46,238 bases of DNA from Chthoniobacteraceae bacterium (GTDB taxonomy: Bacteria; Verrucomicrobiota; Verrucomicrobiia; Chthoniobacterales; Chthoniobacteraceae), in the NCBI GenBank assembly GCA_947448395.1, contig CANFNA010000006.1:1-46238 (forward strand), read 5' to 3'. Below, piece by piece: positions 1 to 46,095 of this stretch; position 1 is the first letter of the stretch, and every line of letters starts with the position of its first letter. A program made the position numbers and the translations under genes. The notes under the pieces are model-generated. The model saw nothing but the letters and a program-made list of their open reading frames with translations, did not search any database and had not been told where the DNA came from.

Positions 1-1404
1 CGCACTGAACCCCATCAACTGCACAGAGCCAAGACCTCCAATCCCAGAAGTCGAAAGCGCTCCAATCTGCAATCCAGTCAACGCACCAAACTGCGAACTA
101 GTCAGTCCCCCAATTTGGCTATCTACGATTCCGGACATCGCAGAACCACTCAACGCTCTGATCTGCGCAGTCGAAAACGCGCGAAGCTGATTCGTGCTCA
201 ATCCTCCAACCGCATACCACCCCAACGCTCCCACTTGCTCCGTGCTCAAACTCGACAGCAACAGCGTCGAAAGAAAACCCATCTGCTGCGTGTCTCGCAC
301 GTTCGTGTAACTCGCTGGATCCCACACCCAATAGTTCCATGGCGAATCTCCTCGATATCCAAGCCCCGCAATCCCAGCCGTGCTCAACGCCGGCACCCAA
401 CTATTCCCAAGCGCACCGAACTGGTCCAATCTCAAACCGCTCACCGCACCTGAAGCCAAAGCCCTGACCTGAGACGTCCCAAACGCGCTCAACTGGGAGA
501 GCTCCATTCCCGAAATTGCGAAACTGCTGAGAGCAGCGATCTGAAGCGTCGAAAAGGAGGACAGAAGCTGCGGAGTCAAGGCGCTCAAAGGCTCCGACGA
601 GGACCCCGACCACAAACCCATCCCCAGTCCCGAAATCGCAGCGGAGCTGAGCGCCAGAATTTGCGAACTACTCCAAGCTCTCAACTGATTTCCAGATAGC
701 CCGCGCACAGCGTCCGAGGACAACCCACGGATCTGATCCACTCTCAAACCTGCAATCTGGTCGGAGCTTAACTCCATAACCCTGACACCCGTCAAAGAGG
801 CTATCTGGTCGCTTCTGAGAGCATTCAATTGAGCGCTGCTGAGGCTTGCCAACCCTCGGCACGGCAGCGCTGACAACTGGTCATTCCGAAGCCCTTGAAA
901 ACCGCCGGAAGAAATCCCAGCAACCTGAGATCCCGCGAGATAGTTAAAACCAGCCCCATTTAGGCTCGCCACCTGCGCACTGGAAAGCATCCCCAACCGA
1001 TCCGCCCCAATACCACCCATCGACTCGGGCCTGATGGAGGCTATCTGAATCGTACTCAACGCGGTAAAGCCCTTTGCGGAAAATCCGTTCCACTGCCCCC
1101 CCTGCAAAGCTCCAACCTGCGAGACCTTCAACCCCCTCACCTGAGACAACGTCAAACTCCCGAAAGTTTCCGGGGAAAGCGCAGAAAACACCTCAGACCG
1201 AATCGCCCCCAACTGAGACGCGGAGAAATAAGATAAACCCAACGCCCCGAAAGCTCCCACTTGATCCAGATTCAAAACACTGATCTGGGACGTCTTCAGA
1301 GCTCTCAATCGAGTCCCATCTAACTTGGTGATATCCTGGGGAACCCACGCAGCCACCTCAGCAGTGGACGCCGTTGAAGCCGGAACATTGCTTTTGGAAC
1401 TCAT
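1..1404 (-). CDS. Octapeptide-repeat protein, N-terminal part only (C-terminus runs off the left edge)
   Basis: Reverse-strand translation from ATG at 1404..1402 stays open to base 1 (468 codons, no stop): MSSKSNVPASTASTAEVAAWVPQDITKLDGTRLRA, then 49 octads (LKTSQISV LNLDQVGA ... LSSDQIAG LRVDQIRG LSSDAVRG LSGNQLRA ... LTSSQFGA LTGLQIGA LSTSGIGG LGSVQLMG). Not in the ORF track because no stop lies inside the window. Confidence 0.9.
   Translation of the reverse strand, partial: MSSKSNVPASTASTAEVAAWVPQDITKLDGTRLRALKTSQISVLNLDQVGAFGALGLSYFSASQLGAIRSEVFSALSPETFGSLTLSQVRGLKVSQVGALQGGQWNGFSAKGFTALSTIQIASIRPESMGGIGADRLGMLSSAQVASLNGAGFNYLAGSQVAGISSGGFQGLRNDQLSALPCRGLASLSSAQLNALRSDQIASLTGVRVMELSSDQIAGLRVDQIRGLSSDAVRGLSGNQLRAWSSSQILALSSAAISGLGMGLWSGSSSEPLSALTPQLLSSFSTLQIAALSSFAISGMELSQLSAFGTSQVRALASGAVSGLRLDQFGALGNSWVPALSTAGIAGLGYRGDSPWNYWVWDPASYTNVRDTQQMGFLSTLLLSSLSTEQVGALGWYAVGGLSTNQLRAFSTAQIRALSGSAMSGIVDSQIGGLTSSQFGALTGLQIGALSTSGIGGLGSVQLMGFSA
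10..1299 (-). repeat. Tandem 8-residue (24-nt) protein-coding repeat block, 49 units, consensus L-S-[ST]-x-Q-[IVL]-x-[AG], interrupted by a 38-aa insertion at about 250-363
   Basis: Manual segmentation: 35 aa N-terminus + 39 octads + 38-aa insertion + 10 octads + 3 residues = 468 codons, matching the ORF length in codons. Confidence 0.88.
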
Positions 1405-41067: not shown

Positions 41068-42477
41068 ATGAATCTTTGTCAACATCTCCCGTCCGCAGGC
41101 GATTTTTGCGCCACACGGCGCCAATTCTTAAACCGTTTTGGCATGGGCTTCGGCGCCCTAAGTCTCGCTGGACTGATTGGCGAAAACACGCTCACTGCCT
41201 CTGCTCAAGGGGCCATCGCCACCGGCGGTTCCCCTCTGACGCCAAAGGCTCCACCGCTTCAAGCCACCGCAAAGCGCATCATCCATATCTTCGCCCAAGG
41301 CGGCCCCTCCCACATCGACACTTGGGATCCGAAGCCCGAAATGGCGAAACATGTTGGCCAGGATGTGACCGCCATCGGGGGCATGCCACTCCCCCCCCAG
41401 TTCAAATTCACAAAAAGGGGCCAGAGCGGTACGGAGGTCAGTGAACTTTTCCCAAAAATCGGAGAGCACATCGACGACATCGCCGTCATTCGCTCCATGA
41501 ACACGGACATCCCAGCGCACGAATTTGCGACGCTGATGATGAACACCGGTTCCGGACGTCTGGTAAAACCGTCGGTTGGTGCATGGACACTCTACGGACT
41601 TGGCTCCGAGAATCAGAATCTACCGGGCTTTGTCGCCCTCGGCGGTGGGTTGGGCGGTGCAAGCAACTGGAGGTCCGCCTTTCTTCCGGGAGCCTTTCAA
41701 GGAACGCTTGTCAGCACGGTGAGCGCCCCAGCAGAAAAGATCATCGCCAATATCAAGAGCTACCACGCCACGCCCGACCAACAGCGTAAGCAGCTTGATC
41801 TTCTGAAAACCTTCAATGAGGCGCACGCGGAGCAACTGAATCGGGAATCCGTTCTGGAAGCCCGAATTCAGTCCTTTGAACTGGCGTTCAAAATGCAAAC
41901 CGAGGCCATGGATGTGTTCGACATTAATCATGAGCCACAACACATCCGTGATATGTACGGAGATACAGAGACTGGCCGTCGAATGCTTATCGCCAGACGC
42001 CTCGTGGAAAACGGGGTTCGTTTCGTACAAGTCTGGGCTGGAGGATGGGATCATCACACGGATGTGAAGGGGAACCTCAAGAAACAGGCTGATATGATCG
42101 ACGGCCCTGTGGGCGCCCTTCTAAAGGACCTGAAAGATCGCGGGATGCTCAAGGACACCCTCGTCGTCTGGGGCGGTGAATTTGGACGGACCCCCCGTCA
42201 TGACCGTGGAGCGCGCGGAGAACCCGGGCGGGATCACCACAACAAGGCATTCTGCTCGTGGATGGCCGGTGGCGGCATTAAGGGAGGCCAAGCCTACGGT
42301 GCCACCGATGAGTTCGGCTTCGATGTCGTCAAAGACAAGGTTCACGTCCATGACCAGCACGCAACGATGCTTCGATTGCTCGGGTTCGATCACGAAAAGC
42401 TGACCTACCGCTACAACGGCCGCGACTTCCGCCTCACTGATGTTTACGGCAATATCGTGGACGGCCTCATTGCGTAA
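41068..42477 (+). CDS. DUF1501 domain-containing protein with Tat-like signal
   Basis: TRRQFLNRFGMGFGALSLAGL; RIIHIFAQGGPSHIDTWDPKPEM; VVWGGEFGRTPRHDRGARGEPGRDHH. Confidence 0.95.
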   Translation: MNLCQHLPSAGDFCATRRQFLNRFGMGFGALSLAGLIGENTLTASAQGAIATGGSPLTPKAPPLQATAKRIIHIFAQGGPSHIDTWDPKPEMAKHVGQDVTAIGGMPLPPQFKFTKRGQSGTEVSELFPKIGEHIDDIAVIRSMNTDIPAHEFATLMMNTGSGRLVKPSVGAWTLYGLGSENQNLPGFVALGGGLGGASNWRSAFLPGAFQGTLVSTVSAPAEKIIANIKSYHATPDQQRKQLDLLKTFNEAHAEQLNRESVLEARIQSFELAFKMQTEAMDVFDINHEPQHIRDMYGDTETGRRMLIARRLVENGVRFVQVWAGGWDHHTDVKGNLKKQADMIDGPVGALLKDLKDRGMLKDTLVVWGGEFGRTPRHDRGARGEPGRDHHNKAFCSWMAGGGIKGGQAYGATDEFGFDVVKDKVHVHDQHATMLRLLGFDHEKLTYRYNGRDFRLTDVYGNIVDGLIA

Positions 42478-42580
42478 TTCGCTCTTCCAAAAGACTTAAG
42501 TAAAATCAGTTGCCCCCTGTTATCGGCAAAGCACTCGGGGCCTTTCTCCCCAGTGCGTTCCCAATCTGGATTCCATAAAA

Positions 42581-45500
42581 ATGCGTTCCCTGACCCTCCA
42601 TCGAGCCCTCGCATGGGCGTCTCTTGGCCTCCTCTGGACACCCGGATTAGCCCCCGCGGCGGCACCCTCAGACCTCTCCCAGTTGGATTTTTTTGAAAAA
42701 AAGATCCGCCCAGTCCTTGTCGAGAGCTGCTACAAATGCCACAGCGCCAACAGTGAGAAGCTTCGCGGGGGACTGCTCCTCGATACTCGGGAAGGAGTCC
42801 TTAAAGGCGGGGAAAGCGGCCCCGCCATCGTTCCAGGCGATCCTAAAAAGAGTTTGCTGATTACCTCGATCCGCCACGAGCACCGGGATCCGGATATGGC
42901 GATGCCGCCAAAAGGAGACAAACTCTCTGACGCGGTCATTGGCGATTTTGAGACGTGGGTCAAAATAGGAGCCCCTGATCCAAGATCCGGTCCCGCGCTA
43001 GCAAAGAGTTCCACGTGGGATGCAGCCAAAGCTGCGGACCACTGGGCCTTCAAGAAAGTCGTGGCACCCGCGATCCCGAAAAGTCCGGACCCAAAACATT
43101 TCATCCAAAACCCCATCGACAGCTTCGTTCTGGCAACGCTGCGCGCAAAAAAACTGCAAAACTCCCAAAAGGCCGATAAACAGACCCTGATCCGTCGAGT
43201 CACCTATGACCTGACAGGTCTCCCACCGACTCAGGCCGAAGTGGAAGCATTCCTAGCAGACACTGCCTCAGATGCCTTCGAAAAGGTTGTGGATCGCCTC
43301 CTTGAATCTCCTAAGTACGGAGAACGTTGGGCCCGCCACTGGCTTGATATTGCCCGATATGCGGACACCTCCGGCGACCGTGCAATCGGAAGGAATCGGA
43401 CGCCCCTGTATGCCTACGCATGGACCTACCGCGACTATGTAATCAAAGCCTTCAATGAGGACCTGCCTTATAATCAATTCATCGTAGAGCAGCTTGCCGC
43501 AGATCGCCTCCCAGAGTCGAAAGACGACAAGTCTCGACTCGCCGCGCTTGGGTTCCTGACCATTGGAAAGCGCTTTGAAAGCAATGAGAACGACATCATC
43601 GATGACCGAATCGATGTCGTCACAAAAGGGTTGATGGGCCTCACAGGCGCCTGCGCTCGCTGCCACGACCACAAGTTCGATCCAGTACCCACTCGTGATT
43701 ATTATGCGCTTCACGGAGTCTTCGCCAGTTGTGAAGAGCCTTCGACCGGCCCAGCCCTCGCGAATCCGGAAGCCAATGAGGCCTACCAAGACTACTTGGT
43801 TGAAGTGAAGAAAATCGAAGATGAGCTCAAGGACCACGAACGCACTGAAGCCTTCCGCCTCACCTCTGGGATGCTCGAACGCGCCGGCGATTATCTCCTT
43901 CTTTATCAAGAATCTTCGAAAACGACGGACAACACCAAAAAAGGGAACAACTACCGCATTGCCGCTCGCGACAAAGGACTGGCCGCAGAGGTAGCCGCTG
44001 TCTGGGCAGACCAACTTAAAGAAGCACTGGATGCCCACTCCAAAAAGAAAGATCCCGTCCTCGGGCCTTGGCTCACATTAGCCGCTCTGAAGCCGGAGGA
44101 GTTTGGCGAAAAATCACCCGCACTTCTTCAGGAAATGAAGGATTCTGGGCAATTCAATGCCGCAGTGCTTGCCTCGCTAATATCCAAGGAACCGAAATCG
44201 CTTAAGGATGCCGCAGAGGCTTACACAGAGGCCTTCGCAGGCCTTCATAAAACACTTGGTTTGCCCCAGTTTTCTGGGCGCGTATCCAAAGGATTCCCCG
44301 TCGCAAAGATCAATACGCCCGTTTCGGATGAGTGTACCGAGTCTCTGCGCAAAGAGGTCTTCAGCACGACATCGATGATGGTACCGGACAAGAAAACCAT
44401 TTCGAAGACCTTCGGCGTGACTTTCACCACCACCCAAGCGCGCATTCAGTCAAAGTTTGCAGCCCTCGATTTAAGCCATGCGGGAGCGCCAATCCGCGCA
44501 ATGACTCTCGTCGACCGTGCAAAACCAAAAGATTCCAATGTCCTGATCCGAGGCGAAGCCCTCAATCGCGGCCCTTTGGTTCCGCGCCATTTCCCAACGC
44601 TCCTTGGGGGCTCCGAGGAAAAACGATTCAGCGACGGAAGCGGGCGACTTGAAATGGCTAGAGAGATCGCGACGCGTGAGAACCCACTCACGTCCAGAGT
44701 GTTCGTAAATCGAGTCTGGCAGTGGCACTTTGGCCAAGGAATCGTGCGAACCGTCAGTGACTTTGGGACTCGTTCAGAGCCACCCACCCATCCCGAACTG
44801 TTAGACTGGATGGCCTCTTGGTTCATGGACAATGGCTGGTCGATCAAGAAGCTGAACAAGCTCATTGTGATGTCATCCACGTACCAACAAGACAGCCGAG
44901 TTTCAGAACAGGCCTCGAACGTTGATCCAACCAACCAGTGGCTCTCTCACTTCAACATTCAACGCCTCGACTTTGAGCAAGTGCGCGACACGTTGATGAC
45001 CGTTAGTGGCGAGTTGGATGATTCGGAAGTCGGCGGCCGTCCTTTCGTCATTGCCAACCAATCTTCGGCAGTCACTCGAAAGGCCCCAACAGCAGCTGAT
45101 ATTGGGAATCTCAAGACCAACCCAAACCGACGCACCGTTTATGCCATGATCGATCGCGCCGCTCTCCCCGAAGTCTTCAACACGTTCGACTTTGCTAATC
45201 CCGACATGAGTACAGGAGAGCGCGTCTTAACCACCGTCCCTCAGCAGGCTCTTTTCATGATGAACAGCCCATTCATCGCTGAACAGGTTCGCGCCATTCA
45301 CGAAAGGAAAGACTTTCCAAAAGACGGAGCAGACGAAGACCGCGTGCGTTTCCTCTATCAAGCCGTCTACCAACGCCCTCCCTCAGCCAAGGAAATCGAG
45401 CTCGCTCGGGTCTTTCTCAACTCAGACCCCAGCACCGCGACAACAGAATCAGCCTCTGTCCTTTCGAAGACCGCAGGATCTCCTGCGCAAAAAGGTGCGA

Positions 45501-45583
45501 CTCCCACGCCAAAGCTGCTCACGCCACTGGAGCGCTACACGCAAGTGGTTCTCCTCTCGAACGAACTGATGTACATCCGCTAG
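42581..45583 (+). CDS. Planctomycete-type cytochrome c (PSCyt1) / DUF1549 / DUF1553 protein
   Basis: 1000 aa; CYKCH heme motif with MAMPPK, LDIARYADTSGD (DUF1549), CARCHDHKFDPVPTRDYY, C-terminal LNKLIVMSSTYQQDSR and LFMMNSPFIAEQVRAI (DUF1553). Confidence 0.95.
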   Translation: MRSLTLHRALAWASLGLLWTPGLAPAAAPSDLSQLDFFEKKIRPVLVESCYKCHSANSEKLRGGLLLDTREGVLKGGESGPAIVPGDPKKSLLITSIRHEHRDPDMAMPPKGDKLSDAVIGDFETWVKIGAPDPRSGPALAKSSTWDAAKAADHWAFKKVVAPAIPKSPDPKHFIQNPIDSFVLATLRAKKLQNSQKADKQTLIRRVTYDLTGLPPTQAEVEAFLADTASDAFEKVVDRLLESPKYGERWARHWLDIARYADTSGDRAIGRNRTPLYAYAWTYRDYVIKAFNEDLPYNQFIVEQLAADRLPESKDDKSRLAALGFLTIGKRFESNENDIIDDRIDVVTKGLMGLTGACARCHDHKFDPVPTRDYYALHGVFASCEEPSTGPALANPEANEAYQDYLVEVKKIEDELKDHERTEAFRLTSGMLERAGDYLLLYQESSKTTDNTKKGNNYRIAARDKGLAAEVAAVWADQLKEALDAHSKKKDPVLGPWLTLAALKPEEFGEKSPALLQEMKDSGQFNAAVLASLISKEPKSLKDAAEAYTEAFAGLHKTLGLPQFSGRVSKGFPVAKINTPVSDECTESLRKEVFSTTSMMVPDKKTISKTFGVTFTTTQARIQSKFAALDLSHAGAPIRAMTLVDRAKPKDSNVLIRGEALNRGPLVPRHFPTLLGGSEEKRFSDGSGRLEMAREIATRENPLTSRVFVNRVWQWHFGQGIVRTVSDFGTRSEPPTHPELLDWMASWFMDNGWSIKKLNKLIVMSSTYQQDSRVSEQASNVDPTNQWLSHFNIQRLDFEQVRDTLMTVSGELDDSEVGGRPFVIANQSSAVTRKAPTAADIGNLKTNPNRRTVYAMIDRAALPEVFNTFDFANPDMSTGERVLTTVPQQALFMMNSPFIAEQVRAIHERKDFPKDGADEDRVRFLYQAVYQRPPSAKEIELARVFLNSDPSTATTESASVLSKTAGSPAQKGATPTPKLLTPLERYTQVVLLSNELMYIR

Positions 45584-45681: not shown

Positions 45682-46095
45682 ATGCGTTCACTTCGCCTCC
45701 CGCTGCTTGTGTTAGTGACCACCATTCACGTGATCCTCACGGGAGGAAGTGCCATCGCCGAGGATTCCAAGCCCCCCGGTCCTCCGAGAGGTTCGGGACC
45801 ACGTCCTGAGGGAAAAAGACCGGAAGGGATGGATCCTGCTGCGCGTTTGAAGATGCTCGCAGAAAAACTCAGCCTGTCTGACGAGCAACAAAACAAGGTC
45901 AAAGAGATCTTTCAGAGTAACGCTCCAGCCATGAGAGAAATCATGTCGAAAGGCCGAGAAAATCTCACCGCTGAAGACAAGACGAAGCTCCGTGAGTTGA
46001 TGAAATCTCAGCAGGAATCGGTTCGCGGGATTCTGACTGCAGAGCAGCAGGCTAAGTTCAAAGAGATTGTGGCTCAGCGCGGCCAGAAGGAGTGA
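45682..46095 (+). CDS. Spy/CpxP-like LTXXQ-motif periplasmic protein
   Basis: Signal peptide, then LKMLAEKLSLSDEQQNKVKEIFQSNAPAMREIM...LTAEDKTKLRELMKSQQESVRGILTAEQQAKFKEI. Confidence 0.75.
   Translation: MRSLRLPLLVLVTTIHVILTGGSAIAEDSKPPGPPRGSGPRPEGKRPEGMDPAARLKMLAEKLSLSDEQQNKVKEIFQSNAPAMREIMSKGRENLTAEDKTKLRELMKSQQESVRGILTAEQQAKFKEIVAQRGQKE

Follow-up and report, generated by a model that had tools for sequence, protein, structure and literature searches.

What kind of protein is encoded by the octapeptide array that runs off the left edge of the 46,238-nucleotide stretch of Chthoniobacteraceae DNA analysed here (the window), and what might such an array do?

The octapeptide gene and its family

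The initial annotation described a minus-strand frame of 468 codons without a stop, composed of eight-residue units and continuing beyond base 1. The frame is indeed open, starting at an ATG, over window positions 1-1404 (minus strand), and its period of eight is evident from a lag-8 identity of 0.226 against 0.093 +/- 0.013 in shuffled sequences (z = 10.4). The number of units differs from the 49 counted initially, as automatic parsing recovers 56 octads within the window and, once the protein is joined, 179 over its whole length. The joined protein is obtained through contig C64 of the same genome, which starts with an exact 129-bp overlap to the window's left end on this strand and is the sole other place in the genome carrying the window-end sequence; the join is based on an overlap of the assembly-graph type, not on reads. 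A stop or frameshift just left of base 1 is absent. The frame stays open across C64 to L004:3255, and the protein therefore comprises 1,509 residues (468 + 1,041) and is larger than the window part, as had been anticipated. The window holds roughly its N-terminal third, nearly all 8-residue repeats, with the following features:

1-1404, minus strand: first 468 codons of an ALTTAQ (PF20080) protein of 1,509 aa, continuing in contig C64 at L004:130-3255
1-1299, minus strand: regular octapeptide array from residue 36 (LKTSQISV), with a predicted helix of 4-6 residues per octad
298-363, minus strand: aromatic-rich insertion loop LGYRGDSPWNYWVWDPASYTNV between octads, of low confidence in the model

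The joined protein has four such aromatic loops in total, the other three at residues ~506, ~664 and ~1174, of which the last two have diverged further. The 1,509 residues include a single Cys, and inspection of the N-terminus revealed no signal peptide. A C-terminal sorting domain, suggested earlier as something to look for, was likewise not found in the joined protein, in which the repeats end shortly before the gene does. At the right edge of the window, positions 45682-46095 encode a small LTXXQ-motif (PF07813) protein that has only the motif letters in common with the octads; it is preceded (41068-45583) by a DUF1501 gene and a PSCyt1/PSCyt2/PSD1 gene.

The array was initially regarded as unannotated, which is incorrect: the protein clearly belongs to Pfam PF20080 ("ALTTAQ repeat"), matching in 12 stretches with 161 bits (gathering cut-off 26.4) as a tandem array in octad register; it did not show the defining features of any other family compared. 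This family is curated though uncharacterised, and the match is not one to a well characterised repeat family. A literature search found no paper naming ALTTAQ or PF20080 and no published function; the family is known, and what is new is the functional model presented below. The window protein shares the octapeptide array with PF20080 and, like its relatives, scores above the cut-off, but it is more degenerate than the family (21% Ser+Thr) and has aromatic insertion loops. Its lower Ser/Thr content and four aromatic loops may indicate a different role for this copy.

Three further ALTTAQ proteins occur in the window's genome (3,131 and 865 aa on C35, 651 aa on C135). ALTTAQ proteins are present in 13 of 57 near relatives (the window's genome counted), mostly of the same genus, in 2 of 291 genomes sampled across the window's phylum and in 5 of 191 genomes of the class of one proteobacterial member; among 14 control genomes, Caulobacter vibrioides is positive, and it also has a match to PF13844. 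A scan of GTDB contigs yielded at least 77 loci, nearly all in Alpha-, Beta- and Gammaproteobacteria, with a consensus octad as query, which biases the result toward canonical members (an 11-row alignment was too diverse). Family members reach about 6,800 residues. On a plasmid of Burkholderia sp. MSMB0856 (L141:14743-17958) the array is followed in the same protein by a C-terminal cysteine protease domain of the calpain family (C2), and an ALTTAQ array can therefore carry an enzyme.

Predicted octad fold and superhelix

An AlphaFold2 model of 240 residues of the window protein, built with 48 in-register rows from relatives, has a mean pLDDT of 89.9, and in it each octad forms a single helix some five residues long. 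The model of all 468 residues reaches a pLDDT of 86.8, and only the aromatic loop at residues 356-368 falls under 50. Modelled helices span octad positions 3-7, and strands are absent. Across 34 proteins, position 1 is Leu in 85% of octads, position 2 Thr/Ser in 72%, position 5 Gln in 69% and Asp in 10%, and position 6 Val/Ile/Leu in 88%. Mapped onto the model, position 1 would correspond to N', position 2 to the N-cap, position 5 to N3 and position 6 to N4. The consensus L-S/T-x-x-Q-I/V/L-x-A/G then reads as a helix N-cap, with a predicted hydrophobic staple between positions 1 and 6 and a capping box between positions 2 and 5. Capping box and hydrophobic staple are the textbook combination at a helix start, and the whole consensus may therefore be explained as a self-contained helix start.

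The closest PDB chain by sequence is 9zem_A, HeliScrew4, with 120 residues of LTPEQIAA-like tandem octads. The family profile matches it at E 6e-30, and the window protein as single sequence at E 3.4e-9. To judge by its name, it is a designed protein; no paper on it was found in the literature search. HeliScrew4 has the same type of octad as the ALTTAQ proteins, but is 120 residues long and apparently not a natural genome product. The earlier statement that no solved structure was known is no longer quite true because 9zem exists. The proposal of an elongated solenoid, in turn, agrees with the short helix per octad in the AlphaFold2 models (pLDDT 87-90) and with this solved chain of similar octads. 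Foldseek searches against PDB and BFVD returned low-TM matches only, the best being mesothelin (E 6e-5, TM-score 0.34), and 9zem was absent among the Foldseek matches listed. Mesothelin, an extracellular protein, is a right-handed solenoid built from 24 short helices (PMC10035497). It shares the short-helix solenoid with the ALTTAQ model, but the TM-score is low, its ARM/HEAT repeats are irregular and it is an animal protein.

Evidence for a higher-order winding comes from the spacing of similar octads. With octads shuffled within each protein as reference, identity is in excess at lags 7, 10, 14, 17, 20, 24 and 27, which fall near multiples of 3.40 octads. One relative possesses a higher-order repeat of 17 octads (136 aa); when lags 17 and 34 are excluded, the best period in the 34 proteins is still 3.40 octads (power 34, next 13.8), although the z-scores are not independent because the proteins are related. 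The alternative period of 17/7 = 2.43 octads gave a poorer fit than 3.40. From this periodicity, each turn of the screw is predicted to take about 3.4 helices, and 17 octads would make five turns. In the window protein itself the 3.40-octad signal is weak.

Linked glycosyltransferases and exporters

Among the matches listed, a gene for a GT41 glycosyltransferase (TPR plus Glyco_transf_41, Pfam-confirmed in those tested) lies within 3 kb of the ALTTAQ gene in 28 of 76 loci, at a median gap of 169 bp. Where both ends are visible among these matches, GT41 is found within 3 kb in 13 of 23 loci and absent in 10. Nineteen of the 28 linked genes listed are located downstream on the same strand and eight are upstream and divergent. 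The 20 checked genomes with linked loci contain 2-6 GT41 matches each, and one gene usually yields two; chance adjacency is therefore estimated at well under 1%. GT41 occurs in 12 of 13 ALTTAQ-positive versus 13 of 44 ALTTAQ-negative near relatives, and in G309 and G144, which belong to different families, the GT41 gene directly follows ALTTAQ. In G309 the pair (L044:2978-9821) is located near the flagellar genes fliF/fliG, which could mean that the role is linked to the flagellum or that the GT41 enzyme also targets flagellin. Expansion of GT41 without ALTTAQ is likewise observed, as G316, a genome of the same family, has 31 GT41 matches and no ALTTAQ protein.

Type I ABC or HlyD genes, sometimes with TolC, are present in 12 loci among the 76 listed. 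Among relatives of the window's organism, ALTTAQ-ABC-HlyD clusters are found in G303, G314, G291 and G292; G296 has an ABC-HlyD-GT41 cluster, and G301 combines an ABC-HlyD-GT41 trio with the end of an ALTTAQ gene where the contig starts. Six of the 57 near genomes carry an ortholog of this HlyD, and all six are ALTTAQ-positive (Fisher p 4.7e-5, uncorrected for kinship). The surface or structural role initially assumed for the protein receives support from these exporter and GT41 neighbours in relatives, albeit indirectly.

We consider it probable, with moderate confidence, that ALTTAQ proteins are O-glycosylated, type-I-secreted surface alpha-solenoids of capped octad helices. Such a protein would be a very long and thin alpha-solenoid in which each octad provides one capped helical turn, with position 2 as N-cap, Gln5 shutting the capping box, and Leu1 and Ile/Val6 contributing both hydrophobic staple and core; consecutive helices would wind into a screw whose turns, judging from the sequence periodicity, take about 3.4 octads each. 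Like type I secretion substrates, the window protein lacks a signal peptide and has nearly no cysteine. Family members would be made in the cytoplasm. At the level of the family, we infer that the adjacent TPR-GT41 enzyme decorates exposed Ser/Thr and that the type I ABC/HlyD(/TolC) system exports the protein, which may act on the surface or in the matrix as spacer, adhesin stalk or coat. The more comprehensive claim, that ALTTAQ constitutes an undescribed surface glycoprotein system with a capping-octad screw, O-glycosylation in the cytoplasm by a dedicated GT41 and a dedicated type I exporter, in Proteobacteria and the distant phylum of the window, is put forward tentatively and falls a little short of probable.

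Comparable arrangements are known. The HMW1A/HMW1B/HMW1C system of Haemophilus influenzae comprises a large exported adhesin and a cytoplasmic partner enzyme of the GT41 family (PMC3983070, PMC3012730). The likeness would consist in a large exported protein with a partner GT41; HMW1 uses two-partner secretion and N-glycosylation, whereas a type I exporter, a helical fold and Ser/Thr targets are expected for ALTTAQ. The HMW1 passenger is a beta-helix. The type I-secreted giant adhesins SiiE and RTX resemble the ALTTAQ family as very large repetitive proteins with an ABC/HlyD exporter that is linked, for ALTTAQ, in some relatives (PMC6272769), but the repeats there, with calcium, are of Ig-like or RTX type, in contrast to the predicted capped single-turn helices of ALTTAQ.

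The window copy and alternative readings

The window's genome is 82% complete, and neither GT41 nor a close HlyD ortholog was found in it. Its sole HlyD above the cut-off belongs to a type I system on C27 that is unlinked to the ALTTAQ genes; this ABC-HlyD operon (C27:4242-13992, L158) stands beside a gene for a 1,397-aa clostripain (C11)/DUF4114 protein, likely a separate type I substrate. For the window copy, glycosylation and export are therefore extrapolated from relatives and the family model is applied by analogy; this copy would follow the family scheme. One flank of the gene holds a MarR/HlyD_D23/AcrB RND efflux set. On the other flank, in C64, FGE-sulfatase and PATR/Ig proteins are encoded:

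L004:3258-4487: FGE-sulfatase gene, in C64 downstream of the window gene
L004:4500-14699: incomplete protein of >3,400 aa with FGE-sulfatase, laminin-G-like, PATR and Ig domains, in C64 after the FGE-sulfatase gene

A short ALTTAQ-like stretch between domains of the latter protein was seen by eye.

This neighbourhood raises the alternative that in the branch of the window's genus the protein belongs to a surface module with FGE-sulfatase and PATR/Ig proteins, uses another export route and is unglycosylated, its aromatic loops binding a ligand such as polysaccharide. An FGE-sulfatase gene also adjoins ALTTAQ in another member of the genus (G292, C160), and the presence of aromatic loops and the lack of a GT41 match in the window's genome fit such a module, as does the protein of >3,400 aa (FGE/LamG/PATR/Ig) downstream. 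However, the neighbourhood occurs in two genomes only, the window's genome is incomplete, and the single loop that was modelled is predicted to be disordered. We regard this reading as possible but doubtful.

A cytoplasmic scaffold or elastic filament, with the GT41 and type I linkage coincidental or serving another substrate such as flagellin, appears unlikely. GT41-like enzymes modify flagellin in other systems, and the position of the G309 pair next to fliF/fliG would accord with this explanation, as would the members seen without signal peptide and the window's genome without a linked exporter. It is opposed by the adjacency of GT41 in 28 listed loci, in two arrangements and in genomes with one to few GT41 genes, and by exporter genes immediately after ALTTAQ in several genomes. 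That the octads are weakly recognised leucine-rich repeats, or another known class, is very improbable, as LRR_8 attains 13.6 bits under a Pfam cut-off of 27, LRR chains appear in the family-profile PDB search with 50 bits against 107 for 9zem, and an LRR unit has 20-30 residues and a beta strand while the octad model is strandless. RTX and TAL-type repeats were discarded, like LRRs, on the grounds of Pfam scores, repeat period and the secondary structure of the model; the window protein has no RTX Pfam match, and its period is 8 rather than that of Gly/Asp-rich nonapeptides.

The window protein is an ordinary member of its family, and the interest lies in the capping octads, the 3.4-octad screw and the GT41 and type I linkage. 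The fold model offers a physical explanation for the ALTTAQ octad, in which each unit is one capped helix and about 3.4 of them complete a turn. The proposed pathway, with GT41 glycosylation preceding type I export, is testable and would make these proteins a helical, type I counterpart of HMW1. If this is true, the ALTTAQ family, which occurs in many environmental bacteria, could provide natural substrates of bacterial GT41 enzymes.
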